Shown one piece after another: positions 28,260 to 58,600 of a DNA stretch of 64,000 nt. The stretch covers positions 248,001-312,000 of the forward strand of contig NW_002476212.1 in the NCBI RefSeq assembly GCF_000189635.1, written 5' to 3'. Source of the DNA: Tetrahymena thermophila SB210. Its lineage: Eukaryota > Ciliophora > Oligohymenophorea > Hymenostomatida > Tetrahymenidae. The first letter of the stretch is position 1; every line of letters starts with the position of its first letter. The position numbers and the translations under genes are program-made. The notes under the pieces are model-generated. The model was not told the DNA's origin. It did no database searches and worked only from the letters and a program-made list of their open reading frames with translations.

Positions 28260-31200
28260 ATGGAAAATTAGCAAGTACTTTCTCTTTTGCTTTTCTTCCT
28301 TTAGATAATTATTGCCTTGAAGACTTTGCATGCGTATTAATTAATTTTTAATTCAACCGTTATAAGTGGCTTCAGCCCTTAAAATTTTCTATTGCTTAGT
28401 TAACTGTTCTTAGATATAAAATTTGAATTTAACTATCAAATTATTTAGCTCAATGCAGATTAATTAATATTTGTTTTTTCGTAAATGGATAGGTTGAATA
28501 ATCATGAGGAAGATAAAGAAAAGAAGAATTAATCAAGCAAAAATCAAGATGCATAAAATAAGGATAAGGAATAAACAGTAGATCAAACAACTAAAAATTA
28601 GCATTAAATTGCATCGTAGTAATATCTTGCTAATTAAAGTAACAAAGATTAGCATTTGTCTTCTCAGTTTTATGGAAATTAGACAAGCAGTGGACCATCA
28701 TTTAGCAATTTCGATATAGATGTCTCAACTACATAGAGACAGCGTACTGATTCCTTCAGTGTACCAAACCCAAGTAGTTAAATTATTCAAAATTAATTGA
28801 AATTGAAAACTACTGTCAACATAAAAGATTTGCAACCTTACATAAATGATAATTACTTATAAACTCCTAACTTTAATACTAAAAATAATATTGTAGGCTA
28901 AAATAAGAGCAGAAAGAACTCAGAAAATATACCCTAAACTCCTAATTTCCAGCCAGAAAAAAGCAAAAAATTATAGCTTAATTTATAAACAAATAGTTAT
29001 TAGAATCCAAAAAAGATAGCATCTAGTAACAACCAAGATTTTAATTTGAATTAGCAAAACAATTCTATGATGGAAGTTAATTATGATTTGGACCAAGAAA
29101 GTCAAGAAATGCATTAGGAAGAGCTTCCTCAGCCTCCCTAATTTAAAACTGGTATGAGTATTAAGGAAATTATGAAAGTAGAAACTCCAGAAAAGAAAAA
29201 GATTTTGCAATAAAACAAAATGTTGTTCCAAGACAATAGCATCAACAATAATATAAGTCCCTTCATAAATCCTAAAAATTTCGTTTAATCTCCTGACTCT
29301 AACTTTTATACTCGTAATTCTTCAAACTTTAAATATTATTAAGCAAACTAATTTTAAATATTATTAAGCTAACTAATTTTAGTTATGTTTAAAAAAAGAT
29401 TTATAATTCAACTAAATCTTTATTATAATATATAGGTTAAAACAGATAAAGTAGTGTCTAAGAAGACAAAAGAAATAAACACCATTTTATAAATTAAAGC
29501 TAAATTCTTAAGGAAAAAGAAGCAAAAGTTATTAAAAATGATGAAAAAATCAGAGATGCACATTGGATTTAGCCTCCTACAAGCAAACCTTCAAGAAAGT
29601 ATTAAGAAAAAAGAGACTAAAACTTAAGTCAATAATACAGAGATATTCCTAACCCTAGCTTTGATGATAGAGCAGAACAATTAGATTCCAAGGTTATTTC
29701 TCGTAAAAGGCATGTATTCGATAGCTTTGCTCATGCTTATGAATCCGATGATATGGAAGATGAATAAACTGAAAAGAACCATTCTATTTGCAAGTAAATC
29801 TTTTTACATGAATTAATTATTTAATTAGTTGGATAATTTATTGGGAAAAAAAAAATAAATGTTTTATATTTGTTAATAAATATCTTAAAAATTAGCTAAA
29901 TAATAATAAATATTTGTATTAATACTTGTTTATTTATTCATAATTTAAATAATAGAATTTTACAAGTTCAAAAGAAAAGAAAGGAGGAACTTTTTTCTAA
30001 GTTTATCAAGTAAAAAGAAGCAGAAAAAAAGAACTAAATTTTGTTTAATGCTCCTTATAGCAATAACATGAATACTTTAGTTACGATAAATCACCGTGAA
30101 TAGGAAAAGATTGACCTTGAGGAAGCTGCTAAAGTAGAAAAACCAATTTTTATAAAGCCAGCTGATAGTTTGATATTAAACAAGAATGATAATCTACCTT
30201 AATAGCCATCTGAAAGCAATTTTAAATTGCCAGGAAATGAAAATACAAGTTTATTCAGTTAAAACTAAACTAAGCCTGCATCTATAAATATTATCATTCC
30301 TGATAAACAAATTTAAGCCAACTAAGATGAAAAAAGTACTCCTCTTGATAAAAAAGACGAAGGCATTAAATTATCTGTTTTAAATCCTCCTCCTGCTCCA
30401 AAGGCTGCATAAGCAGCTCCTTTGGGATTATTTGCTAACTTACCTCAATCATCTTTAGTATCAGTAGATAAGAAAGAAGATAATAACACTGCTGTTTAGG
30501 CAGTTAAGTCTACACCTCTTTTTAACTTATAAGAATCAAGTGCTGAAAGTCTAAAAAAATCTGATGGAATCAAAGAAATCTAAGAAAGCTCTTAAGAAAA
30601 AAATTTAACTACTCCTCAATAAACAATTACAAGTAGCAGTTAAGTTATTTCTAATCCATTTGATTCTTAATAATCTCTTTTCAGCAAAAGTCAAACTCCA
30701 TAGCAAGCTTAAACTCCTTAATAACTTTAAACTCAAATAGAAATTTAAAACGAAATAGCACAAAAAAAAGGTTTACCCAAAAAGTAAACCAGTGCTGGTG
30801 GTCTCTTTGGAAACTTAGCTTCAGCTTAGACAGAATAAAAAAAAGATGATGTAGGGCAACCTATGCAAACTAATACAGGATTATAAATACCCTCTATTCA
30901 AGCAAGTATAGGAATAGCTTAACCACTCACTCCAGCAAACACAGGATTCTTATTTAACATGCCAAAATAGTAGTAATAGCAATAATAAAATATTGGAACC
31001 CAAGCATCTAATAATGTAACTGAGAGAAATATATCTTCTTTTGACAAGTCAATCGAACCTTAAAAAGCTCTTCCTCCTAAAAATAAAGAATAAACTCAAC
31101 CTGAAAATAAGTTCGGTGGTGAAGGTGGTTTATTTGGAAATTTAGGTAAAAATTAGATTTCTTTAGACTAGTCAGTTAAAGTAACCACAACTTTGACAAA

Positions 31201-32302
31201 TGAAGTAAAAGAAGTTTAGGCTGCAGAAACAATGCAAACTACAACTTAAGATAATTCTGCTTCTGAACTTTTTAAAACACCATTTAGTTTGGATTCATAG
31301 AGTTAAGTTTAACAGTAAGCAAAAAATATTACAGATTAAAAGAATGATAATCATAAAGTTCCAACTCCTGTTTAACCTTAACCTTAACCTTAATCTTAAG
31401 GATTGTTTGGAAATTTAAGTAGTAATTAATCTGTTACTGAATAGAAGAACTTTTTGAATTAACCAAATATCCCAAGTAGTTTATTCCCTAGCGTTTCTAA
31501 TAGCAATGGATTAAACCAAGGAGGAGGTTTATTTGGAAAGAAAGATGAAAATACTTAATAGCAAATTGCAGAAAAGAAAACTGAATAACCTAAAAACTTA
31601 TTTAGTGGATTAATTAAAGATGGCGCTGTAGGTGGAGAATAAGCAATAGGAGGCTTTTTAAAGCAAGAAGCAAATAATAAATCAAACGGATTAGGATCAG
31701 GATTAGCATTTTTATAAAACCCAGGTGATGATAAACCGAAAGAAGCTAAAAATTTATTTGGATAATCCATATCTAATATAAATCAAAGTGGAGGTATTTT
31801 TGATAAATCCAATAACAACCCTTTAAAAGACAAATAATAATAGTAATAGTAGTTGAATAAGGACTTTGAGCCTTTACCACAAAAAGCTATCAATTAAGAA
31901 AATGGTTAACTTTAAACAGAAGTAAATGGTTTAAACTCTTTAGATAAGTAATAGAACTAACCAGTAAGCTAAAGTTTATTTACACCTTCATCTTAACCAG
32001 TTTAAAATTCTTTATTCTAATTGAAAGAATAACCTAAAGTATCCACTTCTTAATTGTAAAGTAGTTCGTAAGGAGGTTTATTTGGAAGTTAAAATTAATC
32101 ATTAAGTCAATAAACCAATTAATCAGAACCTAACAAAAATACATCCTTATTTGGTAATTTATAAAGTTAAAATAAAGGGGGCTTATTTGGCTCTAATGGA
32201 ACAGGACTTTTTGCAAATTAATCTAGCAATTCTAATTAGTAAAATGGTTTATTTGGAAATACTAGCCTATTTTCAAAACCAGCAGAGAGTGCTACATAAT
32301 GA
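28260..32302 (+). CDS. FG nucleoporin with N-terminal membrane segment (POM121-type)
   Basis: Model of 1252 residues; introns 29314-29435 and 29794-29955, TGA at 32300. The frame is open from an ATG at 28260; a second in-frame ATG at 28485 would remove the first 75 residues. Seen: the N-terminus has a strong hydrophobic helix (QVLSLLLFFLQIIIAL, about residues 5-20), followed by a disordered N/Q/K-rich region with basic patches (KKRKEELFSK). The C-terminal third carries FG repeats, mostly GLFG type: GGLFGNLASA, GGLFGNLGKN, GLFGNLSSN, GGGLFGKK, GGLFGSQN, NKGGLFGSNG, GLFGNTSLF. Known: FG repeats form the permeability barrier of nuclear pores, and POM121 combines an N-terminal membrane helix with C-terminal FG repeats. 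Tetrahymena is reported to have POM-type nucleoporins that differ between its two nuclei. Inference: a pore-membrane anchored FG nucleoporin. If translation starts at 28485, a soluble basket-type Nup is the alternative. Confidence 0.8.
29330..29381 (+). repeat. 25-bp tandem duplication inside an intron
   Basis: Two near-identical copies, each ending in AACTAATTTT and differing by one base, lie inside the first intron of the nucleoporin gene. Each carries a CTAA-type branch-point-like sequence. Confidence 0.6.
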
Positions 32303-34600: not shown

Positions 34601-37600
34601 ATGAGTTAAATTCAAGGTTCCATTGGGATGATGGGATTTTAAATTTAATATAAAATTAACTAATGTAATAAACTGATTATAATATATAAAAGGATATTTT
34701 GGCCCTTCAGTGTAATCTTATATTATATAATTGTTTTTAGAAACCCAGGATATGTGCGATATGTAGATAAATGCTCTCCTCATCCATTCAAATAAGTAAA
34801 AATAATTTTACATTCATCTAAAATTTAGAATTATTCAATTTACTGCTTCTATCAATCATCAATTAGTAATCGATGAATTTAATTAATAGAAAATAATAAA
34901 CAATTTATTCCTGAAATTATATTTGTATTTTTATTTTATAAATAGACTTCCTACCAATTAGATGGCTCTATATTAAATAGCAAAGATATTTAGGGTAACT
35001 AGGCACCTTAAATAAATCTCTAATAAACCTTAAGTGGCGTTGGTAATCTTAAATTAAATAAGAAAGAACTGGTTTCTATTATAAAAAGCTAATCGATTAA
35101 ATAAAATCAGGCAAATATTTAGTAATTGCAGCTTCAGTAATAGCACCAGCTATCGCAACAACTTTCTACTATGAATTAAAATGTAAACTAAGCAAATTTT
35201 AGTAAATCATAGCTACATGATGAGTTTCAGTCTGAAATGATTTCATAACCACATTTAAATGCAAATGCAGCAACTTAAGAATAAGCAAATAACACAAACC
35301 CAAATGTGAAAGAAGTCAATCATAATATAAACAGTACATCCTTTCAATATAATCCGTTACAACATACTTATTAAAATAATGCTCAAGGATTACCTCCTAG
35401 TTTATACTAAATAGCATCTTAATTACATAATTAAGGTATCAATATCAGTATTAAAAATAGTTAGGGATAAAATATAAAAAATTCTTAATTTAATAACTAC
35501 AACTCTGCTATCAGCTAAATAGATGGAAATTAATTTTCAATTTAAGGATTTAAATAAAATGTAAATTTAGAAGAAGAGTAATAAATAAATAGTAGCGTAT
35601 TTAGACCTTGCTAATAATAAAATGAGATGGCAAATCAAAATTAAGATAAAAGTTGTAATGCTTATGATATAAATTAAAAGGAAATTTTGTAGAATATAGC
35701 ATTAAATAACTAAATAAGCACATCATAGTAGCCATAAACTAGTCATTTTTATATAGGACCAAATATCAATCAATATTATTAAACTTCTCACACTGATTTA
35801 ACAAGCATGAATGGAAATACATAAAAGAATATTTTTAAATACTAAGTTAGTGATGAAAATGAAGGAGGAAGTTCTAATTTTCTTCCTACTAACGGATTAC
35901 AATAACTTGCTTCTAAAATGCACAATAACCAAGCTAAGATGAGTGAAATACCTAAGGAGGATTCTTATCGATATATTTAAAACAGTATTAAAGCTACTCT
36001 TTCAGAGTTTGGAAAACCAACAAAATAAAGTTAAAAAATTACGTAAACTGAAAATAATGGAGAAACAGAGGTGTGCCCTGATACAAATGTTTTTATAGGA
36101 GGCGAGTCAGAAGGTGGCATAACAGTAATGTAGGCCATGCAAATGTATTAAATGGGATTAGATCCTAATCAATATTTTAACTACGAGTTAGGATAAGAGC
36201 TTGATATGGATGAGGAATCAGATAGAGTTTAGAGCTTTAGAGAAAATTCAGAAAGTGTTCAAAGTTAGTAAATATGCTTAGACGATCTTAAAGACGAGGA
36301 GGAAGAAGAAGAAGAAAAGTAAGATGAATCATGTCAAAATAAAAAATAATTGAATGATGAAGATGCTTATAATGGGGATAGCTAAGATATTGACGAACAT
36401 GCGAAAAATAATCTAAATGAATATCAGTCCAGTAATGCTATAAATAAAGAACAATTAAAAGCACTTAAAAAGAAGATTGTAAGCACTGCGCTTTCTATAG
36501 TAGAAAAATAGGAACAAAAATATTAAGATTAAATGTAATAATAGAAATAAGTTTAATTTGATTCAGGAAATGATTAGTCAAATGGAGAGCACCTTGAAGA
36601 ATTTGCTAGTCCAAAAAAAATTAAACAAAAAATATCTTTTTCTCCTAACATAGAATAAAACCTCTTTGTAGATGGTTCAGCTTAAATTAATTCAGAGCAA
36701 CATGAATGTGAACAAAAAGCAACAGGATTAAGCCCATCTAAATCCACCCCTACTTTAAATTAAAAGCAGTAAAAAGGAATAATGAAATAACATTAATTGT
36801 ATAAAGTTAACGAAAATTAAGATAATATGCATAAAATGCTTTAGTTGAGTCTTCATAATAGCTTAGGATCTTAAAATAATTATTTTTAATACGACATAAA
36901 TAACTTTAGTCATTTAAATGACGCAGTCATAACCAAGTACAATATCTCGTTCGGAAGAAATTTTAAAGAGGAATTGCAGAATCATGAAAATGATGATAAC
37001 TTAAATAAAAGAGATGTGGATGGTTAGATTTAGGGAATAAAAGTAAATTCTCTACAATCTTGCAATATAATAAGTAGTGGAAGAGATCATAATTCAAGTT
37101 ACTTGGCATCTATATAAAGTGAATCTCATCAAAGTCCTACTTAATAAAGTTCTAATAAAAATAAGTAGCTAAATATATAATATGTTTTAGAATTTTAGCA
37201 CCAAGGTGGTGTTTACTTTAAGGAAAGAGAGAGAGTTTCTCCTTAAAGGATATCTCAATCACCTAATTATCATGAAGGGATCGCATTTTTTTAGTAAAAC
37301 TACAGCAATGAAGGTATTAAAGAATAAGATTTGCTTTCTCCAATTCAGTTTATAGACCAATAGTAACAATAAAAACAATAATAATATAATTTTTAGAGTC
37401 TTATCTAGAAGAAGCTTTCTTTTAATACTCCTGATCCACATAATCTTGCACAGCAGTAAGATGATTATCTTGATGATGAAGCTTCTTATAGAGATTAAAA
37501 GTTAAGATACTAATAAGACTTATAAGGGAAAGCTCTTTTTAAAAACGAAAACCCAAATTCTATCAATAATTCAAATTATGATCCAAACTTTGAACATGAG

Positions 37601-40436
37601 TTTATCTACTCTGCTCTTTCTTCAAATAAACTTCTCAACTCATACAACCACTCTCGAAAAAACAGTAATTATTTTAACTCTCAATAAAAGGGTAAAGGTA
37701 CCCTCAATAATTCATAGAGAGATCCATCATTTTCAGAATTTGTTGGAAACCTTGGAATAGTAAAAAAAGGAATCATTTAAAACACAAGTAACATCACTTT
37801 CAAAAATAATTAAAATAATGAAACTACCATGGATGAGGATAAAAATATTACACAGCTGCTAAATAGCCCTGTGTTAAAGAAGAAGAGTAAATCATATTAA
37901 AATCAAGAATCAAATTTAGTTCAAAATAGATAGCAACATGCATCTGGTGTCTCTACATCTAAAAATAGTTATTTCATAGAAAATACATTCGAACCACAAC
38001 ATCGCAGCTCAAGTACAGCTTCTTACAAAAAAGGAAAGGCCATTTAATATTTTTAAAGCAATTAAAAACTAAAATAAAATAATCTAATTTTAAACAATTG
38101 TTTTGGTGTTGAATAAAACCAAAATTAAAATTTTGAAAATCAATTTGAATAGCAGCAACCTATTGAAGAATGCAATCAATAACATTAAGCAGATACTTAG
38201 GACAAAGAGATACAAGAAGAAAATGATCAAATCATAGAATAATAAGAAAATTTAGTTAACGTCAATAAGTGCAAGGATAGCTTAAATAATTTAAATTACC
38301 ATTCTAATGAATTGGGATAAGAATAAAATGATGAACGCCATAAAATACCAGATAGTTTGTCATTTACTAATTAATTATTGTAACCATTAAGCACTAACAC
38401 AAATGTTAATTTGACTCTAACAGATAATAAAATTGCTAATAACTTGCAGAATACAAATACTACTAAAAGCTGTTTCACTGAATCATCGCCTAATTAAATA
38501 TCTCCCTAATAAAGAGCATCTTTAATTGGATTTCAAAACAAAGATCTTCAATTTTTAACTAAAAAATGTTCTAATACAGTGGCTAAATATAGCTAATCAA
38601 GTATAAACTCTAATTAAAATAACTACATAGCTTCTAATCCTTAAAAACAATCACCTTCCTAAATAAACTACTCTTTCAAAGACAGATCTGGATCTGTAAA
38701 GTTAGCTAATAATACAAACTAAAGCGCATAATAGTGCAATAATTTTAATGATGATGCATCTTAAGAAAACGTAAAGTTTAATTCCTCACCTTATAAACAA
38801 AAAAGTTTTATAGACTAAGGTTCACATCATGGAATTTTTTCAAGAGAGGAACTATAAATATTCTCCAACGAATAAATTGAAGGAAGTGTGCAAACAAAAC
38901 TTTAATTAAAAACTTAAACCTAATCAAATATAATCGATAAATAAAATAACTTAGAAACTGAAGCTGGAAGTGCTTCTAACATCTATCATTTATAGAAAAA
39001 GGAATCAAGAAACAATCCCACATATTAACAACCCATATTAAAATAAAATCACTCAAATTTAATTAGTAAAAGTGTAGCATTTGCTCCTCAAGGTTCAAAT
39101 TCATAAATACAAAATTTTTAAGCTGCCTAATTGCAATCAGGCTAATTTATTTCTCATATTATTGGAAGCACAAAAGAAGGTTCGTCCCTTTAATAATAAA
39201 AGCTTACCTAATATTCAAGCTAATTGAGTAATTAGAACTATGTAAATGCCTAGATCGCTCTTTACTCGCCCTCAGCAAAATCCAATCTAACAATCTAAAA
39301 TGCTGCTGGAATGAGCTTCTTCAAAAATAATCAAACAAATTTATCAAACGAATCTTTCAATTAAACAAACACTTAATGTCCAAATCCGCTAACTCCCTCT
39401 TCTAATAGTAACAATAATCCAAACAATTTAAATACCTAAAAAGATTTATAAAATATAAATGCATAAATCATTAATCATGAATCTTTTACCCCAAATCACA
39501 TTTCCACGATAAAAAGAAACAGCAGTAACGCAAATTACTTTCACAAACTATCAACTGGAATGAGAAATACAATGAACACTGTACCAAACATAGTTTATAC
39601 CACTCAAGGCAATACCAGCTAGACTCAAAATAACCCAAATCTTAAAAATACAATTTCAATCAACAATAATAACAACAACAATACAAATAACAATAACAAC
39701 AATAATGAAAACATAACAATTACTAACTATACAGCTCCTTACTTTTTTGAAAAGAGATATTGTAAATATTGCTATATAAACTAGCCGACTCGCTCAAAGC
39801 ATTGTCTTATATGCAATAGATGCATATCTACCTACGACCACCATTGCCCATGGATAGGTGTTTGCATAGCTTAAAGAAATCATTTATTTTTTTTCTTCTT
39901 CATAATTTGTTAAAATGTAGTAAGCACCTTAACTATCATTGAGGTATATTAATTTTTTAATCATTCTTAATATATAAATTCAATCTAAAATTAATTATAA
40001 TTAACGAAAATATTAATATCAAAATTAGTTTATTCACTTTCTAGCAGAGAAAGTTAATTGGAAGATATAATCAGATGTTATTTTAGCAGTATTTAGTATA
40101 ATTTCAACTTTCTTTTTAGTTTATATATTTGGAATGACAATTCTTTTAGTGGCTTAGCATACCTACTATATCTTATTCAATTTGACTACATGTAAATTTT
40201 TATTTAAATTAATTCTTATCTCAAACTAAATTTTTAAAAAAGGGGAATTTTACTCTTGGGAAAAAATTACATATTTAAAAGATTTGCCTCGTAAATTCGG
40301 AAGTCCCTTTTCTTTAGGAATTTTAAAAAATATTAAACATAGAATAATTTCAACATTTTCTTCAGATACTTATGAGTGGTAAATAAATAAGCTTAGGTTA
40401 CCTCCTTAAAATAATATAATAACAAATTAGCCTTGA
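34601..40436 (+). CDS. DHHC-type protein S-acyltransferase with giant Q/N-rich insertion
   Basis: Model of 1849 residues; introns 34796-34945, 39944-40028 and 40192-40242, TGA at 40434. Known: DHHC enzymes attach palmitate to cysteines of membrane-associated proteins and act in Golgi, plasma and other membranes. Seen: a membrane helix (FSVILYYIIVF) leads straight into NPGYV, the place of the usual DPG motif (residue ~48). About 1600 disordered residues rich in N, Q, S and K follow, with acidic clusters. The cysteine-rich domain comes next: RYCKYC, then KHCLICNRC, then YDHHCPW with the catalytic cysteine at residue ~1699. Two more helices follow (FFFFFIICQNVV; FSIISTFFLVYIFGM), then the TTxE motif as TTWE, split by the last intron. 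The signature residues needed for catalysis are present. The start is uncertain: 34601 is the first in-frame ATG of the open stretch, but a first membrane helix appears to be encoded upstream. Confidence 0.85.
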
Positions 40437-41497
40437 AATAGAAAAAAAATTTTAAAAGTCTTCACAAAAATAAAGTAAAGAAAATAGAAAAATTAAGGAA
40501 CAAAAAAACAAATAGTGATAATTAGAATGTAAATAAGATATTTAAGTTTAATAAAAAAAGAAAAAGATACATTATAATGATTCATTAACTTACCAATTCT
40601 TATTCTGAAAACTAACAAATATAAAATAAATAAACTTAAAATGAAAAAATTAAATAAATAAATATAAATAATAAATTATTATTTTTGTAAAATAATATTT
40701 AAATAATCCTAGCTATATATCAATTAAATATATTATATAAAAATTAATAATACTAATTAATTCTTATAATCAAGATTTACTTACACCAATTAAAATTTAC
40801 TAATACAAAAAGTTCTATATACATTTAAAACGAAATTTTATAAATATCTATTGATTCTTTACAAAATAACTTCTTTTTTAACAAAAATTTATTTAAAATA
40901 TTTTGTTCCTAACATTTTGTATCTTAAACATCAATATAAAATTTAAATATCAAAAATATTTCTAAAATAATTTAATTCTTTGTGCTTAATATAATATTCT
41001 TCAGACCACATAAAGTTTCTCAACTTAAAAGCTAGCTAGCTCTTTTAATTTATTTAAAAGGTAAAAATTATTTTTAAATTATTCTAAATAATTTTTTATA
41101 AAATAAATCTAATTTAAAAGGATTTCATTTTTATGTATTTTAAAACATTCATTTTATAAAATCTATTGTTTGTAACCAGATTTTGACTTTAAATGAATTT
41201 GATTAAGCTCTCTGTTGATAAGATTAGAAATTATAATCAACTAAATAAAATAACTTTATTTTATTTAAATTATGAGTTGTGAGAACTATCAATGAATTTA
41301 TATGATTAATTCTAATTTTAGAATTAATTATCCTGTAAAAATTTGATTATAATAAAAATTTAATAATGTTTAAGATACTTTAAAGATACACTGAAATTGA
41401 TTAATAAGGGTATTCGTTATAAATAATCAAATTTTTTCTATCCACATAAATTAATTTATTAAATCCAAAAATTAATTCTACAAATATACAAAAAATA
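40437..41497. other. Intergenic, AT-rich
   Basis: No coding character or RNA gene was recognised. Confidence 0.6.
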
Positions 41498-44400
41498 ATG
41501 AAATAAAGCGATTTAGAATTTTAAGAGGACTCTCCTCAATTGAAACAAAAGCAGGAGTAAACGGAAAATGATGCATCTACTTTGCAGACAATAATTGCTG
41601 GAAACTCTAGTAGCCCTGATAAGGTTCTGAGATAGAAGATTTCTCAACTCTCAGAAGGCAAGTCTAGACCTAAATTCAATCGAATCAGCTTTTAAAAATG
41701 CGAAAATTTTGATGAAGATGTGGTTGATCCTAAAAAAATTGTAAAGAGCTCAAATAAAGGTTTGCGCTTGAGACAGATAATAAATGGTTTGTTTTAAACA
41801 TCAATTATAATCTTTAACTGTTTTTATACCAAAAATGGCGAATATATCTATGCCACCTTTGGCTTCGTTTTAGGATGCTTATCTTAGTGGCTGTTGATGG
41901 ACATTCATTTGGATAAATTCACAATCCAGCAAATTAAGAAGCTCTAAAAATAAAGGGTCACTCAATCTAATTCTCCTAGGAAGAAAGAAAATAAAAAAAT
42001 AAATTCAATAAAAGTAATAAATCGAAAAGCTTCAAAGAACTCATCTTTGAATTAAAGTAAATTATCCAATAATATAAAAGCACTTACTGACAATCAAAAA
42101 AAGACTGACTTAATTGAAATTTGCCAAATTTAACAAATGAAGAGAGATTCTTATTTAAATATTAAGCAAGTAGAAGATATCTAAAATAATAAAGATAACT
42201 CTTTAAATAAAAATCAAAGTCATTCTCTTAACAAACAATGTAATTCAATAATTTAATAGAACACTTCTTTTTAACACAACAGAAGAGCTACTTCTATTAT
42301 GGGAATTTCAGATAATTAAAAGCTAAAATAAAGTAGAGGAAGTTCTTAGCAATAAAGTCCAAAAAATATGCATGATAACTCTAATATCATCTCAAATTTA
42401 ATGTAGCTAAACGCCAAGCAAAAAGAGTAAACAATCTTGTATGAGAAGAGAAGATCTAAAATACTTTAAAGAAAATCAACAGCTCTTACAAACAATGACT
42501 TCATTAACTAAAAATAACAAAAGCCTATATAAATAAACTCTTAAAGCAATTAAGATATTACTTTTAATGCAATCGAAAAGGACTAAGAAAATAATAACAG
42601 ATCAATTAAAACTTAAAAATAAATGAAGTCAAGAAGATAATCTATAAAAATTTAAACAAAAACTTCTATAAAAAGTAAAAAATAAGGCAAATCATAAAAA
42701 AAAAATTATTAAAATGATGAGATGGCAGTGCTAAAAAAAGCTAACTGGTGTTAAATGTTTCATCAATTGAATTATTAATGGATTTAATATTTAATCAATT
42801 TACTACCTTTAATTACTATGGCTGTTAGGGATTAAGACACTCTAAGAAATTTACTTCTTTTATAATTTTTAAGAGGAATATTTATCATAGATGCTTTTAT
42901 TTCATACTAACAAGTAGAACTCACTCACTAATATACTGAGTATGTAAGAAGATACCTAAATCTAAATCCATTTAAATTTGTCACTGTATATTTAATATTG
43001 TTAATTATATTATCTTCATATATATATTATGTCATAGAGGACTTTACCACGCTTTGGGATAGCATTTGGAACATTATTGTCAGTATAACAACAATTGGCT
43101 ATGGCGATATTGTTCCTTAAACTAATGCTGGAAGAGCCTTGATCATTATTGTTACAAATATTTCAGTCGTTTTCCTATCTTTCATAACTTCTTTCATTTA
43201 GAACACGCAAGAATTCACAAAAGAGTAGCAATAATCATTTGATAAAATTATCAGAGATCTAAAAGAAAAAAAGATAAAGATGTAAAGTATTTTTGTCATC
43301 AAATACTTTTTTCATTATCATCTTCCTCCTTGTTAAGAAATCATACATAAAATAAAGAGCAATAAATCTTTTGTAAAATTAGATCTCAAATAAAATTATT
43401 AATTAGAATACCAATACGCATACATTCCTTCTTTGCCAATTCCAAATATAAATATTGAAGAGAGTAAAGAATAATAAAATATGATCAATTCTGGGTAAAA
43501 AGCTGAAAATGCAATTAATTAATTGTAAGAATTTAAAAATATTGAGAAAAGCAATGAATAAAAAAAGGATGTTTATTCTTGCGTAGTTTAAATTGAGGGA
43601 AATGTAAACAGCGGAGCTAATCAAACCAATAATAAATAATTGATAGAAATACAAATATTACAATAACAATAAAAAGAAAAAAAAAAATATTATATGAGTA
43701 AAATAAGAAAATATTTGGAAGAAAAAAAGAAATAAGATCACTCGTTTTTGAATAAAGTAAAACAAAAATATATGGAAATTGACAGATTAATTAGAGCAAA
43801 GGATAATAATTTTTATTTAATGGAAAATAAAATACTACCACAAACAAAAACGAACACAAATTAGTTCACTTAAAGAGGATCGATTCTTGGTGAAAATTCA
43901 CCAATGAATATTTAAAAAATAATAAGAGTATAGAATATTTTAGGTAATTAAAACTATCACTTTTCAACATTTGAAGACTAAAATAAATTGGTTAGCTAGA
44001 TAAAAACCTTTTAAGATTAAAATAAATTGATTTTAAAAACAATAGAAGAAATTAAAAATCAGTAGTATTAATAAGAAGTAAAATAAAATGAAGACAGCAG
44101 TGATAGTTATGAGTTATCATCTAATAATACTAACTGCAAGCATGCCAATAAAATTATCAGTCAAAGTAATTCTGTTATTCCAGAAACACCAAAGTAAATG
44201 CAAATAAACATTCCCTCTAATTATAAAACTATGACTTTTCAAGCTGGGACGTATCGCAGCATAAATACTTGCGAAACTCCTGTGAATAACACCAGAAGAA
44301 TCCCTTAGCCATTCAACTCAAAATTATGTATTGAAGATGACTCTTCTAATAATTTATCAAGGCTATAAACCTGTAAAGGTGATGCTGACCCTAACACAAT

Positions 44401-45310
44401 TGAAAGTAGTTAATAGATAAACACCTTGATTATATTTAATTAAAGCTCCGAAAATATATAAAGTAGCAAAAATTTTAAATCACAAAACTAAGTATGTAAG
44501 TTCAGTAGCTGCTCAGACTTAGATGGTACTTCTATAGTTACAACTAAAATCAAATATAATAAAAATTGTATCAAAGATCTCGATTAATAATAAGTTACAA
44601 ACAACACAGTAAATGATTAAAAGAACACATTTAAAAAAAACAAAAATAAAAAACAAGAAAATGAAAAAGAAGATGAAGATGAGGATGATTTTTCTGAAAA
44701 TCAATCTGAATTCTCATAAGCTAATAAACAAATGGTTAATTAATTGGTTAAAGTTAATAAAAATGGATAAAATAAAAAAAATTCTATTTATTAGGAACAG
44801 TCGTTAAAAGATAATTGCAAATAAGAGCCAGATATTTTTCATGTATAGAATCTTGATAATAGTGACATTTGTAGTAATAGCCAGATAACTTAAAATTAAA
44901 TAAGCGCACCTCCATCATCTTTACCTTTAGCTAAGTTTTTGAAGAAAAATTTACAGTAAAACAAATTAAGTTGTGAAGAATTTGATAATCAGTTTGAATA
45001 AGAAGATGAAGAATAATAATCTAACAAGACAGAAGCTCACAGTTAAAACCAAAAGGTAGATAGTAGCAAAGGAAAAATGCATTAAAACAGTATTATACCA
45101 GGCTTTACAGATAAGTATCTAAAAAGTAATCCTAAATTTTTATAAGATGTTAACTACTCAAACGACTGCAAAGTCCCTAAGATTACCAAGATAAGGTAAT
45201 TCAGTTTGGATTTACCAGTCTTTTAATAAGGTGAAAAATTTATCCTATTTAATAATAACTAGTAAAGTTTAGCAGAAGAATCAAATCTAAAATAAGAAGA
45301 GGAAATTTGA
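41498..45310 (+). CDS. SK-like potassium channel
   Basis: A single exon of 1270 residues, ATG at 41498 and TGA at 45308. Known: SK channels are voltage-independent potassium channels gated by calcium through calmodulin bound just after S6. Seen: two hydrophobic segments at about 94-112 and 119-138 (S1, S2), then a ~275-residue polar insert. S3/S4-like segments follow (LLLLQFLRGIFIIDAFIS), with only a few basic residues. S5 is around 491-513, the pore helix and filter TTIGYGDIVP at about 531-540, and S6 follows. The stretch after S6 (FTKEQQQSFDKIIRDLKEKKIK) is helical and basic, in the position of the calmodulin-binding domain. The remaining ~650 residues are disordered, Q/N/S-rich and partly acidic, with a coiled-coil-like part near 43650-43800. 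GYGD predicts potassium selectivity. Calcium gating is inference from overall similarity. Confidence 0.8.
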
Positions 45311-46123: not shown

Positions 46124-48103
46124 ATGGCAATTAAAAAAGTAACTAACGCAGAAAATGATTATTTTCATAAAGAAAATAAAGGTTGGGAGTCTTTGGTTAG
46201 AACTTTTTAAAATTCTGTGAATAGAAATATAATTTCATATTTAATGGTACAAATATTATTTCATTAATTATCTCATTTGTTATATTATCATTTCATTTTT
46301 CAGTAAAAAATATCACTTTAAAAATAATAAAAACTAAAAGCAAAAAAATAATTCAATTGATGAATATTGTACCATTTAGCAGTATCACTAAAACATGATT
46401 TAAGATGTAAATCTATTTTATTTTTCATTTAATTCTAATTACTAAAAATAATTAAATTTATAATATTTAGAAAGAAAATGGATTTAAATTAAATTTTGAT
46501 AAGGAGTAAAGTTTAATATGTAATTAAAGCCTTAAAGTTAAGCTGGAAAAGAAAAGTAATGCTCTTTAGCCTCTTTGTCTAATGGTATACTGAAAAATAT
46601 CGCATATATTTAAACAAATTATTACTAAAAAAAGTGGTTGAATAATGGAAAAAGTATTGCAGTGGGATATACTAAGGCAAAGACTACAAACACAAGCAAT
46701 CATTAACTAAAGGGAGATATTAACATCATTAATTTTTATAAGCCTTAGCAGCGTCAAAGGTTCTTTAAAGATGTAAAAATTTAAACATGTTAGAATATAA
46801 ATATTATTACAAAAAACACTTAATAATTTAAGCAAAAATAAATATTTATGTTTATTTTAATTTAGATATAAGGTCTAGGTAGTATGAAGCTATTAAATAA
46901 TGGAAAGCATATAGTTGTAGGTGATAAAGTTGGAGATATTTACTTTCTAGATTATATTTTGAACAACCTAAAAAATTAAATGGAAGATAAAAAAAGTATG
47001 GAGGATAAATCTGATGAGTAGAAGCGTATTTCTACTAAAGTTCAAGATTTAGTAGACATATCGTAATTATAATTTTAATTTTTTTTGCCTAATAGATTAA
47101 TAATTTAAATAATATATTTCTATATATAGACCATCCCCAACAGATGTAAAACTAGCTATTGCTGGAGGAAAACAGATTAGCATTTTGGATATTCAAAAAG
47201 AAATAGAAGAAATACAGTTAGAAAGTATGTTTTTAAATTAATATTAAGTATTAATTTCCTTTACAATTTTTTCAAGATAAAACCAAGGAAATTACCTCCT
47301 GTGAATGGAATCCATAAAAGGCACTGATTATTAGTACTGATGACTCTAAAGTTAGGTTATGGGATCCTAGAGATGCATAAAATATAGCCGAATTGTATTT
47401 TTTTAAATTGTTTTATATTTATAAAGAAATAAATAAATAAAAATAGGAGCGCCCATAACCAGCCAGTAACAGTGGGTAAATGGCACCCCAACGGATATAA
47501 TTTTTTGACAGGGTAAATATATATTTATCATTCAAAATTAAATAAATATCTTCATTATTAAAAAATTAAAAGTGGTAAAGACAGAGCTATAAAGTTATTT
47601 GACATTAGAAACTTATCTTAACCTGTGAATACTTTTTGTAGTGATGGAGAAATTACTTGCTTGAAGTGGCATCCAATTTAATCACATATTTTTGTAAGTG
47701 GTGATAGTAATGGAAATGTTTTGCACTTTTAAACAGGGTAAATTATTTGATAAATCCTAAATACTTAAATAAGCTATTTAAATTTTTTAACATAGAGAAT
47801 AAAGTCCTATAGATTAACAATATTCAGATGATAAAATTATCGACATAGATTATCATCCTTTAGGTATTTAAAAAAACTCTAATTTAATTTTAAGCTTCAC
47901 TTTTAAAAAAAGGTAATGTCATGTGCTTTATTGATTAAAAGAAACAATTAAAGGTAAAAAATATTTTATTATTTAACTTTTTTATTATTAAAATGAGTAA
48001 TTTTGTTGATTCATTTTGTATTTATTTGATTAAATTCATTTATTAATTTAATTTTTTTTGAATTAAATAGTTTTATTCTAGAGATCCACCAAAAGAGTTT
48101 TGA
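46124..48103 (+). CDS. WD40-repeat protein
   Basis: Model of 410 residues in eleven exons; introns 46247-46340, 46407-46511, 46773-46865, 47063-47129, 47225-47276, 47395-47446, 47513-47572, 47738-47795, 47864-47912 and 47954-48070. Seen: repeated WD blades, for example SCEWNPQKALIIS with VRLWDPRD, then GKWHPNGYNFLTGSKDRAIKLFDIR, then CLKWHPIQSHIFVSGDSNG; further blades before and after are weaker. The protein ends soon after the last blade (FYSRDPPKEF). Known: such beta-propellers are interaction platforms. The WHP-type blades recall the polyadenylation factor Pfs2/WDR33, but I cannot assign that family. It is the most intron-rich gene here, with introns as short as 49 nt. The second intron's acceptor is uncertain: the obvious AG at 46470 leads into a TGA, so I used 46511. 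A PP2A/COMPASS-type WD protein is equally possible. Confidence 0.75.
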
Positions 48104-48773: not shown

Positions 48774-51700
48774 ATGGCAAGTAATTATTTAAGTTTTAAT
48801 GCGTTCTTCAAAAATAAATAGGTTACAACGTCCTCTTAGTAGCTTTTAAATTGGATAAAAAGCTTAAATGGATAAAATTGCAAATAGGTATAATCCTTTT
48901 TGGATTTGAGAAGTGGTAATTTTTTTAATAATCTTAATAAATTCATAAAATATTTGAAAATAAAAAACAAATTATTTAAAGCAAAATATTAAATTATACT
49001 CAATTTCTATAAAGAAGTATATTTGATCATTATTTAGATGCAATTGTACTTGTTTAAATTTGATTAATTGTATTTAAAATGTTTAGGTATTGTATTAGGT
49101 GAGATTGTCTCAGAAATATATTAGTAGAGTCAAATACTTTAGGAATTAAATTATCATAATTTAGTAAATCCCAATAACTGTATTGCTAATTTGAATAACA
49201 TTATTTGCGAAATCAAATGTTAGTGTAATAAAAATGGCGTGCAATTTCCAACTCATTTACAAGGGATTACACCTGCTCATTTATACGAGGTCATTTACAA
49301 GATTATTTTAATTGACAAAATTTATAATTCTAAACTTCAAATATTTAAAATAAAATACTAAATATCTTAATTTTTAATAAATTAACAGGAATAAGAGTCT
49401 ATTCAAACTTTTTGTGAATGGTTGTTTTTATAGAAAAAGCTAATGTAGATGAGGATTAATGGAACTTTTTAGAATTAGTAAAAAAACAGTATCAAAAGAC
49501 CTCCAATGTCCAAACAGAATTAGATTTAATAAAATAAGAAATTTAACTGCGAAGATGATGATTAAGTTTTGGATCAAAATCCTATTTTGATGACATTTCA
49601 ACCACATTAATAAATTGGATTTGGCAAGAGTTTAGTTGAATAGTCTCATAACTCTATCTAGCAATCCAATTAAAAAGTTTAATAAACTGATCAAGATGAA
49701 CTTAATAATAGACATTTTTCTTCTAGAAGCAGCGAACCCGAGCTATTTTATGCATCAGACTTAAACTTTGTTCATGAAAATAATCATTTTGAAAGCTTTA
49801 ATGATGAATAGTTTAATAAATAGAGTACCCTTAAGCAATCTTTAGAAAATAGTTACCAAGTCCTACGCCCTTCGTCACCATATTAAACAGGCTCTTTTAA
49901 ATAAAAATAATAAAATGCATTTGGTGCTTAAAAAGTAGTTTAATTTGATTAAGATGCTTCTTTTTAAAAATAAAATGAATCTGATTAATTTGCAGATAGT
50001 AAAAAAATGGCTAATAATTATTTTCCTTTTTCTTAGAGTTCATCTGCTTAATCGTCAGCCATTAAAGGCAAGGCAGAAAAATCATCTTAGCCTCTTTAGT
50101 AATAAGACTTAGCAAACTCTTTTGATTCTTCAAAAAATGTGATGAAAGTTTCTCATTACTTGAATGACACAAAGAACAATAAAGTAAATAATAGTAACTT
50201 ATAAGCAAATTAGCTTAATGAAGAATCATTAAGCAAAAACAATTAATCTATACAAAGTAAAAACAATCAATCTATACAAAGCAAAAAAGGCTATGAACAG
50301 TAAGAAAATAATCAAAGGTAATCAAACCTATAGTTACCTCCTTAGCCTAACTCTTCAAAGCCTGTAAAATCTGTAAAACCTAACTAAAATCATCATTAGC
50401 ACTCAAACTCTTTCAATCTCCAATCAAACTAAACAGCCAACACAAGTATTTATAGCGTTTAAAGCAGCTCTGCTTAAAAGTGCTCTAATATAGAAACATC
50501 TGACAAAAGTAAGATATAAAGCTAAAAAAAAGAAGTTTAAAAAATTAGTGCAAATTTTTCTGTAAATTAATCTTCTGGGTATCTAAATGGTTCTTTTGGA
50601 GCTGCTCAGGGTGGAATAATGAATTCTCAATCTAAAGAGAAATTAAAAAGAGAAATTGAGTAATTAGATTTAAGTATAAAGGAAGAATAAATCAATACAT
50701 AGGGAACTAACAGAATAAGCAATAAAGCTAAATAATAAGTTTTATAATAATAACCTAATTAAAATACAATTATTAATTCATAATCTTAAAATTAATAAAA
50801 TTTTAACAAAAACATACCTAATTCTGCAAGCTCCAGACTTTCTTATTAGAGTAATAAAATTACTCAGGAATAAACATCAAATAGAAACGAAAATAGCAGC
50901 TAGTAATTGTCTAAAAATAGATCAAATTAAAGTCTAGTAGAGCCTACTTAATATCCTAATTTACCTGTGCAAAAACCATAAAATCTCAAAAAATAATAAG
51001 GGAGTTTAGGAGGTAATTAATACGTCTCTTCTGGTAGCAATAATAGCAATACTAATAGCAGAATGCGTTCTTATTCACACTAATAATCTACTTCTAATAA
51101 CAGCGAATCAGCAGCTAATTCTGAAATATTTTCATGTAGCAATAATAATAATAATAATTAAAATGAACATTAAACTAGCTTAAATTAATAGAATAAAGAC
51201 AAGGTAAAACCATTACAAATATTTGAATGTAATGATCAACAAAAAGAAAGATGCCTCAAGTGGCTTTATGATATATGTTTAATCAAAAAAGATATCAAGG
51301 ATATCAAAGAAAAACTACCTAAAGTATGTAAGAACGGCGTAATCTTTTTAGACATAATCAATCGTATTTAAGGAAAAGGAGATACTATAACAGGAATAAA
51401 TAGAAATACAAAGAACATGTCGCAAATCAGAGCTAATTATACCAAATTATTCTATTATTTGAGAAAATTTGAGAAAATGAATCCTAGGTACTTATTTAAT
51501 TCTGAAGAATATCTAATGGAAGGCAATAGTGACATATTTTGGGGACTTCTTGATGATATATGGCATCTTTTCCACAGTAAGCAATCACCTTTTGATAAAA
51601 GATCTGAATCCTATGCTCTTAAAAATTAGAAGAATTAGTAAAAAGAAGGAATTTCATAAATAAGCTAACCAGACAAAATAAAAAATTAGTAAGACAACTA

Positions 51701-54700
51701 TAATTAAATACTATTTAATAATAGTAATACTAAGTCAGGAAATAAATTAAGCTAGAATTTTAATGAGGATTAAAGCAGTGTATTTAACGTAAATAATAAC
51801 CCTAGCAGCTGTAGCGCTAGGATTGTTAAAACTCTTCCTAATGATTCTGAAACAGGCTCTCTATTTAACAAGAAAGTAAATGGAATGAATGATCTAAGAT
51901 AGAATGAAGGCCAAAACCCTGTTCTGAAGACATAAGGAAGCTCGAAAAATATGAGTATTAATGGAGGAGGCTTTAGTTAAAATTAATAAAATGTATTTAC
52001 ACCTAAATATAAATAGTAAAGAAATGGAAACAGCTAACAAAGTCCTATACCTTCTCCAAAGAGTATTTAGAATATGAACTATGATAATTTAAGCTAAAAA
52101 GTTGTTCTAACAAGATAAAATACAAGTAGCAATCTTAATTAATCTTACACAAGCCAAAGGAAATCTTTGACAAATCTGAATGCGAACAATTCCTCTTATA
52201 AAAAATTAAGTAACTACAAAGACATTCACACACAAAGATAAACAAATGTAATTATAATATATTATTTTATTCTCTTTTTTTTGACAGATCAGTTTAATTT
52301 ATTTTAAGTTTAAATGTTAATTTATATAAAATATTTATTTAGGCAGTCATTTAATTTAATACTCCGACAAGAAGATGCTTGAGTAGAAGAACTTCTAGAG
52401 ATTTTATAATAAATCAATCATAAAGTCCTTCAGTTTCAAGATAAAGAATCAATACAGTTCACACATTTAATCATAATAGTGTGAATTACTCCCATTAAAA
52501 TAATAATAACAATTCTTTCTTGAAATTTAATAGCTAAAGCAAACTAAATTAAAATAATAATTCTTTTCATACTGCATTTAGTCCATGCACAAATAGGACT
52601 CCATCTAAAGGAATAAATGGATTCGGGTTTAATTAAAATACTCCAAAAGTAATTGCTATTACTCTTGAAATGGAAATTCAAACTAATTAATTCTTAAATA
52701 AGCTCGGTTTTAATTAATATATTGTCAAGAAAGATAAACATCTCTTTGAAGATCCTTTAAGAAACGGTACTTTGCTATGCAAATTAGTAGAAAAACTGAA
52801 TCAAAGAGTTGATAGGTACTTTGCTAAACCTAAAAATATTGAGGAGTGTCGTTTTAACATAGAGTCTGCTTTGCAGCCTTTAAGATCTGTGTAAGAGAGT
52901 ATAAATATTCCTTTCTATTTATTATTTAAGACTGAAGAAATTTTGAAAGGCGAGCACGATGCAATATGGGGCTTGCTTTATAATCTAATGAAAAACCAAG
53001 AAAATATAAGGTAAGCTGATCCTTTAACATAAGTTATTGCAGGTGCTAAGAATGAAATTTATCCAGCTAACAATGGATACATAAATGAAGCAAATAAAAA
53101 TAAGAACAACGAAGTTAATGATGAATATAATAAATCCCTATTTGGCGGAGCTGATTAATATAGTCCTGTTTCAGTTAATAGATAAAAAAATGAAGAAGAA
53201 CTTAATTAATATAAAGGTGGACAAATCGACATAACTTAAGATATTCATCTTCCTTACTCAGCAGATTAAATATATAAATTAGAAGCTAGTTTGATTAAGT
53301 GGATTAATTAAAAATGTGGTAAATTGTTTACTAGCTTCTAGCCAATTTATAATTCAATCAGAAATGGAGTACTGCTTTGCTCTCTAATTTCATCCATATT
53401 AAATAGATTAATATCTCCAAGTCATTAATAGCCAACTTCTGACCATAATTGTTTAGCAAATATACAAAAAGCTCTTGTACCTTTGAGAAATATGAAAAAT
53501 ATGGGTTAGAAATTTTTATGGAAGGAGAATTTAATTTTACAACAAAATTAATCAGTTATTCTTGGATTATTAGAAGGTTAATTTTTATTTTATTTAATGA
53601 AACTAAATATTTTTTGCATGAATTTTCTATTTTCAAAACAATTACTGCATTAGAAAATAAAATATATTTTATAAAATTAAACTTTTTAACAAAAAAAATT
53701 AAAAATCAATATTTATAAACACATTAATAATTTACTAAAATAATTAGATTTGAGAAGATACAGTGATGGACTTCCAGCAAGAAAAGGTGATAAATATTTT
53801 GAAGAGGGACCTTACTTTGGATTTTCTTTTAATAAAGAAAATCAATACCCTCCTGCTGCTGCTGCTCCTAGTCAAACGGATAGAAATATGTGCAGCAATA
53901 ATAGCAGCTTTAGGAATTAAAGAACAGTAGGAGATTCTGTTACATTTTGTGAAGATGCTTTTAATATTGGAGGAGAAAGGGTTTAACTAAATAACGAAAA
54001 TAAATTTCAATAAAATTTACTTAGTAAGTTGAATAACTAAAAGCCTTACAGCTTGTTTAAAGAAAGCTTTGAAGAAAGCAACTTTTCTAGCGATAGCTTT
54101 AATTAAAAATTCCCATAAAATTAATTTATAAATAGAGCTTATTAACTCATATAAGAAAATGCATAAAATATATAAAATTCCAACATAAACTAATAAATAA
54201 ACTAAATTGTTTAAAAAGAACTTAACTAACCTCAGCAAAAACCAAAGGGTCTTCTCGATAATTTTTAATAAAAGCAAAAGCAAATCCTTGAAGAGCACAA
54301 TAACCCCTCTATAAACAATATACAATATCCATATTAATAATAAAACCAAAGTATTACTCACTCGAACATTACATTCTAAAAATAATAAAATTTATAATGT
54401 AATTAATTTATCTTAATTCATTCAAATAATAAATTTGAATTTTATTTGTTAAAATATTTTATGAAAAAATTAATTATTTTAATTCTAACTAAAAAATAGA
54501 AGAGTCAGAAAATCAGTCTCCTTCTTCTTTAAATATTTTGAATTGGCTAAACGAGATTGGTTTATAAGATATTTCAAAGTCATTAGATTTAAATTCGCCA
54601 GTAGTACAATCCTTTAAAGATGGGTAAATATTACATTTATTAATTAATTAATTAATATTAATAAATAACTAAAAATTAATCAAATATTTAACTGTGTCAA

Positions 54701-55114
54701 TATATTTGTAAGGTGATATTTGATAAAAAGCTTTTTTAAAAATACTACTTAATGGATTAAAATTTTATCCATTACTATTTTATTAAAAATGTAAGGTTGG
54801 TAATATGTAAAATCATAGAAAAACTAGATTAAACAAGAATACCTGGTTTGATTAATAACCCTAAGACATCAGCTAGCTGCTTAGTAAATATAAGAAAGGC
54901 TTTCTTTATTTTACAAAAGAAGACTGATTTTGATCCTAAACTCTTGCTTGATGAAACACTAGTTTATGAGGCTAAAAATCATTTTGTGGTTAACTTCTTG
55001 AATTAGTTAAAGCATGCTTTTAAAAATTAATACCTTTACCTTAAAAGATTGAAGTAAACAATTAATTAAATAAATTAATAATTAATTTTAATCTATTAAT
55101 CAAAGAAAAAATGA
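48774..55114 (+). CDS. Protein with five calponin-homology-like modules
   Basis: Model of 1843 residues; introns 48916-49086, 49290-49388, 52248-52342, 53577-53747, 54399-54499 and 54624-54795; every phase agrees to the TGA at 55112. Known: CH domains bind actin, microtubules or partner proteins. Seen: module 1 (about 15-125) has LLNWIKSL, SFLDLRSGIVLGEI and NNCIANLNNI. Module 2 (about 736-852) has CLKWLYDICL, KNGVIFLDIINRI and DIFWGLLDDIW. Module 3 (about 1175-1290) has LRNGTLLCKLVEKLNQ and HDAIWGLLYNL. Module 4 (about 1370-1490) has IRNGVLLCSLISSILNR and SVILGLLEDLRRY. Module 5 (about 1703-1820) has LNWLNEIGL, SFKDGLVICKIIEKLDQ and SCLVNIRKAF. Q/N/S-rich linkers separate them; the first is about 600 residues. 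Modules 2-5 look like the divergent CH type found in microtubule and flagellar proteins. Inference: a multivalent cytoskeletal or ciliary cross-linker. No spectrin, EF-hand or motor domain was seen. Confidence 0.85.
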
Positions 55115-55616: not shown

Positions 55617-58600
55617 ATGTTGGATTTGTAAAAATCTAGTAGCTCTCCTTTTAACAGCTGTGATGAAAAAAATTCTAATAATAGGAAAGTAGTACCGTTT
55701 AATTAGTAATATGCCGATTGTGATATCTAAGCAGTTAGTTTTAAAATGGGTTCATATAATAATAGTTTCAATTAAGTAGAAGAAAAAAATGGAATTCAAT
55801 TTTTATAAGAAAGCAACTTGTAGCTTACAAACCAATAATAATCTAATTAGAAAAAACTAGACACATAATATGATGATACTATATTTAAAACATTTTATCC
55901 TACTAGCGATGCAATTGAACAAAATATTACAAATTCTCACTAAAAAAACAATTAAATAATAATGGATGATAAAACCTCTACTTAATAAAATATTAAAATA
56001 TAAAGTAACAAATTACAAAAGTAAAACACATTAAATACCACACAAAAAGAATTAGTCGCAAGTAATTTAAAAGAAAAAGAAAACAGTGTTTTCCAATAAT
56101 CAGAATATTTATCGCGATTTAATAGTGGCTCTATAATTCAAGCAAAAGGAGAATCAAAAGTAGCACAATCTAATTAAAAAAGTCATAGTTTTGGAAATGC
56201 TCTTCTGGTTAAAAAATTCATTAATAAGTTAAAGGCTAAATCAACTAATTATATTCTTAATCTGATAACATAAAACATTTTTGAACTAATCTATGATAAA
56301 TCCTCAGACTACAACTAGTTTACTAATTAGAGAAAGTTAAAGCAAAAGGTATGTTAGTTATCATATTATATAAATAAACAATATGTTAAAAATATGATAT
56401 TTATACTAATTTGTTAAAACTAATTAGGATAAAGAAAAAACCTTAATACACAAGCTTATCATTCGTACTATTGGTAAGTATTAATAATTAAATTAAATAA
56501 TTTATTATAAATCTATTTACTGTTTAATTAATTTAAAATTACATCATAAATTTTGCTTTTTACTGAAGCCTAAATAAATTCCTTATTTTATTATTTAGCG
56601 TATAAATAAAAAGCATTTAAAAAATAAATAAAAACTATGAAGGAAGTTCAATTAAAAATTTTAATTTTAATTGGATTTGTTTTATTATTTTCAACAAAAT
56701 TTAAAAATTCATTTCTGAAAATAATAAAATAATTATTTTTAATTTTTTATTTTATTAGTTTTTTTGAAAATAAATTATATTTTTTTCTTAAAATAACTAA
56801 CTCTTAATGTTTATTAAAAATTAATAATTAGATTACATCTATAAGGCATTTTTGAATTAGAATTACATTTTTCTTCCAGTAAAGATGTCAATAAATAAAT
56901 TTGTATTTGCAAGCTTATTTTTTTAAATTTTATAAATAAATAGGAAAATATACTGATATTCATTTGGGAAGTATTGCTATCAATCTACTTGTTATCTCAA
57001 ATAATTATTCAGCCTCTGAGAGACTCCTTCCCAACTTATCTAGATTATACCAACAATGATATGCTATTTTTCCACTAATAGATCTTACCTATATGTATCT
57101 TTGCAACTGATACTTTTTTTTTATTTAATACAGTAAATATATTTGAAAAAAAGAAATTTAATTTTTAAAATTTTTTTTATTTTTAAATAAACAAACAAGG
57201 CTATTTTTAAAAATGGTTAAATTATTAAGGATAGAAAGTTTATCTTTAAGACAGCATTATAAAAACATTTTATGTAAAATAAATAACAACTAATTTATCA
57301 TATATTTAAGAATTTATTTAAAAATAAATAAACAAATATAGATTTGAGTTAATTGTCATAACTTTATACTATATAGGTACTTCATTTACTGATTACAGTG
57401 TATTAAAATATTCCATCTTGCTCAAATCCTTTGAGTTTTTTAGCTTATTCAAAAAATTTTGCAATTTATTTGATCATAATCAAAATGGGCTTATTTACAC
57501 ATAATCTGCTTTGATAGTTCTGCAAATATTTATTTTAGCTCATATTTCTGCATGCATTTTTATAACAGTTGCAAACGCCTCTGCACCTAGCATTACTTGG
57601 ATTACAAAGCTATAAGAAGTAACAGAAATTACAAATCTTACCATATCTCAGATTTATGTTTCTGCTTTGTATTGGAGTATAATAACAATGGTAACTCTAG
57701 GATATGGAGATATTGTACCAATTAGTCAAAGTAAAAAAATAATTTTTTTGATTGAAATTTCATAAAATTCAAAATTTTTAAATTATTTAATTAATCAGAT
57801 GAAAAATTATTCGTAATATTTATTGCATTTGTATCGTGCGGTCTCTTTGGCTATTCTTTTAATCTGATAAGTAAATTTTAGTTTAGAAATGAACAAATTT
57901 AATTCTTTCTTTCTTTTTGTATTAGGTGAAATTATTAATGAAAGTTAAAAAAACAAAAATAAGATAAAAAACGATTTAGAAATGCTGAATAATCTTATCG
58001 ATGAAAGAGGATTGAGCAATGAGCTTAAAAATAAAGTAAGAAGGTATTTTGAGTATCTTTATAAAGAAAAGATGAAGAATACTGAAATAGGATATGAAAT
58101 GATAGGTACATTACCTCCCAATTTAAAAGATGAAGTTATGAATGACCTCTACTCAAAAATTTTAAAGTAACACCCCTTGTTTTCAAAGAATTTTTCTGAT
58201 TAATTTATTGCTGAGCTTTCTCTTACTATGAAAGAGCTAAAAGTAGGTCCAGAATTGATAATCCTAAAAAAGTAGCAAATATAAGATAAGTTATACTTTA
58301 TCTTAAATGGAGAAGTAAACTCTTACTTGTAGAAGTTAACAAATGTTAACAATATAATTGAACAATTAACCGTAATAATTTCTTTTTACCTTCCTTAACT
58401 ATATAATAAACTTTTTCATTAAATTTAAAAGTTATATTTATTATTCATCTTGAGATTTTAATTTAAAAGTTTTATTAAAACATAGTATTTATTTATTAGT
58501 CTCTTCAATTCAAATTTGAGTTCTAAATAAATACTGCTGCTAAATAATTTCCATAACGTTAAATAAAAAATAATAAAGCAACCATGAAAATGGATTAATA

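Follow-up and report, generated by a model that had tools for sequence, protein, structure and literature searches.

Five CH modules on Q/N-rich linkers in a predicted Tetrahymena thermophila protein and its two paralogs

The window analyzed here, a stretch of 64,000 nucleotides from Tetrahymena thermophila SB210, contains a predicted gene on its forward strand whose product carries five divergent CH modules strung along Q/N-rich linkers. Searches of the same genome with these modules as queries identified two further five-module genes on the unlinked contigs C138 and C300, and the three genes have the appearance of a genuine family of flexible scaffolds. Each of the five module positions, referred to here as slots M1 to M5, has kept its own character through gene duplication.

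Under code 6, the region 48774-55114 (+) is read as one predicted gene of seven exons encoding 1843 amino acids, from an ATG at 48774 to a TGA at 55112-55114, which is the single TGA of the reading frame. Its six introns are 95-172 nt in length, have a GC content of 0.10-0.14 and all begin with GT and end with AG; their boundaries were picked manually using reading frames and GT/AG positions. N, Q and S together make up 36% of the residues of the predicted protein. The features of the gene are listed in Table 1.

Table 1. Exons, CH modules, linkers and introns of the five-CH gene, in positions of the window.
Feature	Position	Residues	Strand	Remarks
Exons	48774-48915, 49087-49289, 49389-52247, 52343-53576, 53748-54398, 54500-54623, 54796-55114		+	hand-built splice model
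M1	48825..49469	aa 18-142	+	PF00307 23.0 bits, E 9.2e-5, below cut-off; Hook-leaning profile
Linker 1	49470..51227	586 aa	+	N+Q 0.31, net charge +15
M2	51228..51602	aa 729-853	+	PF00307 20.9 bits, E 4.2e-4, below cut-off
Linker 2	51603..52657	320 aa	+	basic, net charge +25, one SPIP, contains intron
M3	52658..53023	aa 1174-1295	+	PF00307 33.4 bits
Linker 3	53024..53248	75 aa	+	8 aa in C138, 108 aa in C300
M4	53249..53824	aa 1371-1505	+	PF00307 39.5 bits
Linker 4	53825..54519	198 aa	+	contains intron
M5	54520..55048	aa 1704-1822	+	PF00307 35.2 bits
M1 introns	48916-49086, 49290-49388		+	splice model
Linker 2 intron	52248-52342		+	splice model
M4 intron	53577-53747		+	splice model
Linker 4 intron	54399-54499		+	splice model
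M5 intron	54624-54795		+	splice model

The Pfam CH family (PF00307) was the top Pfam match for all five modules of the window protein. At least three modules scoring as CH by profile had been set as the bar in an earlier sequence-only reading of this DNA, and M3, M4 and M5 exceed the curated Pfam cut-off of 26 bits while M1 and M2 fall below it. The whole protein scored 79.8 bits against PF00307 (E 2.2e-22), with three stretches individually passing 0.01, and no other Pfam family was detected in it at E 0.01. Across the three paralogs, 13 of the 15 modules matched PF00307 at E 0.01, or 13 of 14 when M3 of C300 is left aside. Following its first helix, that module has an insertion of approximately 40 residues, and alone it gives no Pfam match; it was omitted from the alignment and profile built from the family, which therefore represent 14 of the 15 modules. 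When the profile used for each module was built from the four remaining slots, all 15 modules exceeded each of 3000 shuffles and 79-80 linker tiles, the weakest being M1 of the window protein with 13.3 bits against 11.6 bits for the best shuffle. The five divergent CH modules proposed from the letters alone are thus upheld by profile comparison within the family.

Structure prediction was informative for one module, and the CH fold is supported in this way for M2 alone. An AlphaFold2 model of M2 from a three-row alignment showed a CH-like order of helices (pLDDT 74.8, pTM 0.72), with one of the five models at pLDDT 38.9, and a single-chain model of M3 and M4 made with no alignment was uninformative (pLDDT 34.8). 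The motifs which the same reading had assigned to every module were found in part of them. A turn of the DG/NG type is present in M2, M3 and M4 (NG) and in M5 (DG), with M1 having SG instead, and the GLL of the C-terminal helix is confined to M2, M3 and M4, being absent from M1 and M5. It should also be noted that M4 is flanked in all three paralogs by common motifs, namely LPYS before the CH region and a FEEGPY/FKDGPY/FEE-PY stretch after it. The retention of these flanks suggests that the M4 domain may extend beyond a plain CH.

The linkers are Q/N-rich as had been described, with an N+Q share of 0.25-0.35 in all four. Their hydrophobic share is 0.23-0.32 against 0.37-0.43 for the modules of the same gene, and from this composition alone they are predicted to be disordered. 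The description of the modules as being separated by long linkers holds for linkers 1, 2 and 4 and less so for linker 3. The four linkers measure 385, 365, 8 and 258 aa in C138 and 526, 210, 108 and 213 aa in C300, and no blastp match between the paralogs continued past the module edges at E 0.01. With just eight residues between them in C138, M3 and M4 may act together in that protein.

The genome searched comprised 101,022,631 bases in 445 contigs. The spliced models of the paralogs encode at least 1682 aa (C138, for which no start codon was found) and 1765 aa (C300), and in both the order of the five modules is that of the window protein. The view of the region as one gene is supported by this order being kept in the spliced models of two unlinked paralogs. 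The only other match to the module queries was a weak one on contig C269 (E 0.139), and the family size of three is a lower bound, as the genome search scored few candidates and did so exon by exon; a genome-wide search with PF00307 detected just four of the 15 modules of the three genes. Pattern scans of contig collections gave 90 matches in genome contigs and 366 and 76 in viral contigs, none of which was confirmed; these collections contain no ciliates by design and are silent on the spread of the family among ciliates.

Modules of the same slot share a mean identity of 33.8% (15 pairs) compared with 17.1% between slots (90 pairs). M2 is the best conserved, with 46-49% identity between the window protein and both paralogs. 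In a tree of the 15 modules every slot formed one group, with support values of 100/100, 100/99, 85/97, 66/68 and 90/93 for slots 1 to 5, and slot 1 separated from the remaining slots with 100/100 support. The support for slot 4 is low and M1 of the window protein and M3 of C138 lie on long branches. Because the modules keep the same order in the paralogs, resemble each other slot by slot and group by slot in the tree, the five-module protein is judged to predate the gene duplication, with selection acting on the modules and little of it on the linkers.

The introns had also been put forward as support for growth of the protein by duplication of its modules, and this part of the sequence-only reading was rejected. 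Four of the six introns of the window gene lie within modules, which is not unusual given that modules account for 34% of the protein (binomial 0.107). Introns at the turn glycine were found in M1 (phase 1) and M5 (phase 2), the phases being different, with none at the turn of M2, M3 or M4. Three introns are common to all three paralogs. Two of these are in phase 1, one at the M1 turn glycine and the other immediately ahead of M5, and the third is in phase 2 and falls at the M5 turn glycine. Only the window gene and C138 have the second M1 intron, and among the three paralogs the M4 intron occurs in the window gene only. Such agreement slot by slot, which was partly guided by homology as the CH pattern was considered during the manual placement of module borders and of every splice site, suggests duplication of the whole gene after the five modules had been assembled. 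The intron pattern therefore points to gene duplication and not to module duplication.

To place the modules among CH domains of known structure, the 14-module profile was searched against the PDB. It matched 39 sequences at E 1, with the lowest E values for Navigator-2 (1.9e-11), alpha-PIX (1.2e-9) and fimbrin (2.4e-9), and EB1, NDC80 and SPEF1 chains were absent from these 39. Profiles of the single slots had their best PDB matches with Hook3 for M1 (6e-5), Navigator-2 for M2 (0.0066), alpha-PIX for M3 (4.6e-5) and M5 (7.9e-7), and fimbrin for M4 (9.3e-8). A phmmer search with M3 and M4 of the window protein alone gave weak matches to beta-PIX (0.013), Navigator-2 (0.046) and an EB1 chimera (0.19). 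Against the CH_2 family (PF06294, SPEF1/CLAMP), M1 reached 15.9 bits compared with a cut-off of 27 bits, and no CH_2 match of the genome fell at the five-CH genes. Elsewhere in the genome, a SPEF1-type exon on contig C283 agrees by eye with PDB chain 9nw3_1A through the beginning of its CH, for about 73 residues. Judged by the 14-module sequence profile, and similarity of this kind does not tell the binding partner, the nearest solved relatives are CH domains of the actin family and of the signalling type and not those of the microtubule type. Single CH domains of SPEF1 and the EB proteins bind microtubules, according to PMC11642885, and by the same comparison these are not the nearest relatives.

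It is proposed, with about an even chance of being correct, that the five-CH protein belongs to a ciliate family of three genes encoding large, modular, flexible and multivalent cytoskeletal scaffolds or tethers. Five CH-fold modules, distinct by slot, would be strung on long and fast-changing disordered linkers rich in Q, N and S. Each module would bind its own partner with modest affinity, either cytoskeletal filaments or filament-associated proteins, while the linkers would let the modules reach separate sites. The summed binding could then hold a cortical or ciliary-base structure together, with the modules working singly and not as tandem actin-binding pairs. The slot-wise conservation supports distinct partners for each slot, the identity of which we infer. 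The sequence-only reading had offered the conjecture that the protein might cross-link microtubules or cortical filaments like a spring. Points against this proposal are that M1 and M2 score under the Pfam cut-off, that M3 of C300 is without a Pfam match, and that filament binding is not a necessary property of single type-3 CH domains. In PMC1914345, isolated type-3 CH domains (Vav, PIX) are reported not to bind actin, and the single CH of Dictyostelium GxcDD goes to membranes and not to actin. The window protein resembles this group of single type-3 CH proteins (PIX, Vav, calponin) in its best matches for slots M3 and M5, but differs in having no RhoGEF, SH3 or other catalytic domain at E 0.01 in Pfam. 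GxcDD was also considered as a possible five-CH protein and rejected, as in PMC1914345 'five' refers to CH types and GxcDD has one CH.

The scaffold proposal was weighed against a role at microtubule plus ends similar to that of the Navigators, which is considered unlikely. The Navigator-2 CH heads the PDB matches of the 14-module profile, and the N-terminal part of the Navigators (NAV2/NAV3, UNC-53) shows further likeness in its long disordered basic stretches and perhaps in its SxIP-type motifs, linkers 1 and 2 of the window protein also being basic. Navigators are described in PMC9877351 as combining a single CH with SxIP motifs and extended disordered regions. One or more strict SxIP motifs are present in the linkers of each paralog, giving four in total against a shuffle mean of 0.93, a number reached by 0.95% of 2000 shuffles, although the count was made post hoc, after the Navigator match, and is uncorrected for other motifs. 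The EB1 C-terminal domain (PF03271), the reader of SxIP, has matches in the genome at two places only (C267:119870 and C248:323524) and is absent from the window protein at E 0.01. On the other side, the sole SxIP of the window protein is SPIP, with proline at the variable position, and the linkers that carry the motifs differ from protein to protein. Navigators furthermore combine one CH with coiled coils and an AAA+ domain, whereas the window protein has five CH modules and no AAA+ domain was found in it (Pfam, E 0.01). A protist protein with a Navigator-type CH and SxIP, Dictyostelium DDB0185859, is described in PMC9877351; it has one CH instead of five and is set beside the family by this published description and not by sequence. 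CH matches on contigs C156 and C60 appear EB1-like by eye, and with the EB1 C-terminal domains lying on other contigs the EB-like set may be divided, or include more members than is apparent.

It is decidedly unlikely that the protein binds or cross-links actin in the manner of spectrin and fimbrin, with M3 and M4 as an actin-binding pair. Fimbrin being the best PDB match of M4 and the short M3-M4 gap of C138 would favor such a pair, but linker 3 is 75 aa long in the window protein and 108 aa in C300, and no adjacent CH1-CH2 pair was evident, the C138 gap being the nearest approach. In alpha-actinin, spectrin and other tandem chains, the best stretch for the 14-module profile was in the first CH and never in the second, where for fimbrin (1pxy) the assignment of which CH is which is an assumption of ours. 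The reported lack of actin binding by isolated type-3 CH domains noted above also stands against this reading. Fimbrin and plastin share with the window protein the presence of several CH domains in a chain, yet theirs are four, packed as two tandem pairs after EF hands, whereas here there are five single CH modules and no EF hand was found. A separate fimbrin-like CH cluster is present elsewhere in the genome (C184:533192-535363).

Equally doubtful is a combined scheme in which the protein would be an old ciliate-specific cross-linker. M1 would bind a dynein/Hook-type partner, M2 to M5 cortical filaments or their proteins, and the basic linkers EB1, so that the chain would couple microtubule ends to the cortex. 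A reading as a dynein adaptor, with M1 serving as a Hook domain that binds dynein light intermediate chain and the remainder of the protein carrying cargo, is very improbable. It would be consistent with the Hook3 N-terminal domain being the best match of the M1 slot profile, with the NuMA hook family appearing below the cut-off in two of the three M1 sequences and with slot 1 standing apart from the other slots. PF00307, however, ranked first in Pfam for all three M1 sequences, and the alignment spans just residues 15-93 of Hook3. The single match of HOOK_N (PF19047) in the genome is elsewhere, at C138:835817, with none at the five-CH genes, and the linker following M1 is Q/N-rich. That the model fuses two or more neighboring genes, or that some modules are chance matches, can hardly be credited in spite of the hand-chosen splice sites and the low Pfam scores of M1 and M2, given one open frame through seven exons, the recovery of each module by held-out profiles and five modules in order in two unlinked paralogs.

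In the multi-CH proteins known so far, the CH domains are paired or packed together. In the present family five CH modules are spaced singly on predicted disordered linkers, and their slots stayed distinct through gene duplication. The sequence-only reading knew of no described protein with this layout, and no description of it was found among the literature matches listed; in the titles and abstracts of these, no five-CH ciliate protein was described, most subscription papers being outside reach. The protein may well have been annotated automatically as a CH protein in databases, and the novelty is in the layout and not in the domain. If the modules bind separate partners, the family would offer direct access to the way in which the cortical cytoskeleton of ciliates is tied together, in an organism that permits gene knock-out and tagging.

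A number of other frames were observed on the same strand of the window. Potassium-channel-like frames flank the five-CH gene at 41306-45307 and 56719-57864 (Ion_trans_2, E 1.1e-13 and 1.7e-8), and a WD40-type gene lies directly upstream of it at about 46500-48000, with an exon at 47328-47747 (WD40, E 2e-5, just below the cut-off). Further upstream, the frame at 34877-40372 has a DHHC palmitoyltransferase domain (E 7.4e-22) at its end, after approximately 1600 Q/N-rich residues. The frame at 29297-32299 is rich in GLFG/FG repeats and without a Pfam match at E 0.001; from the look of these repeats it is presumably FG nucleoporin-like.
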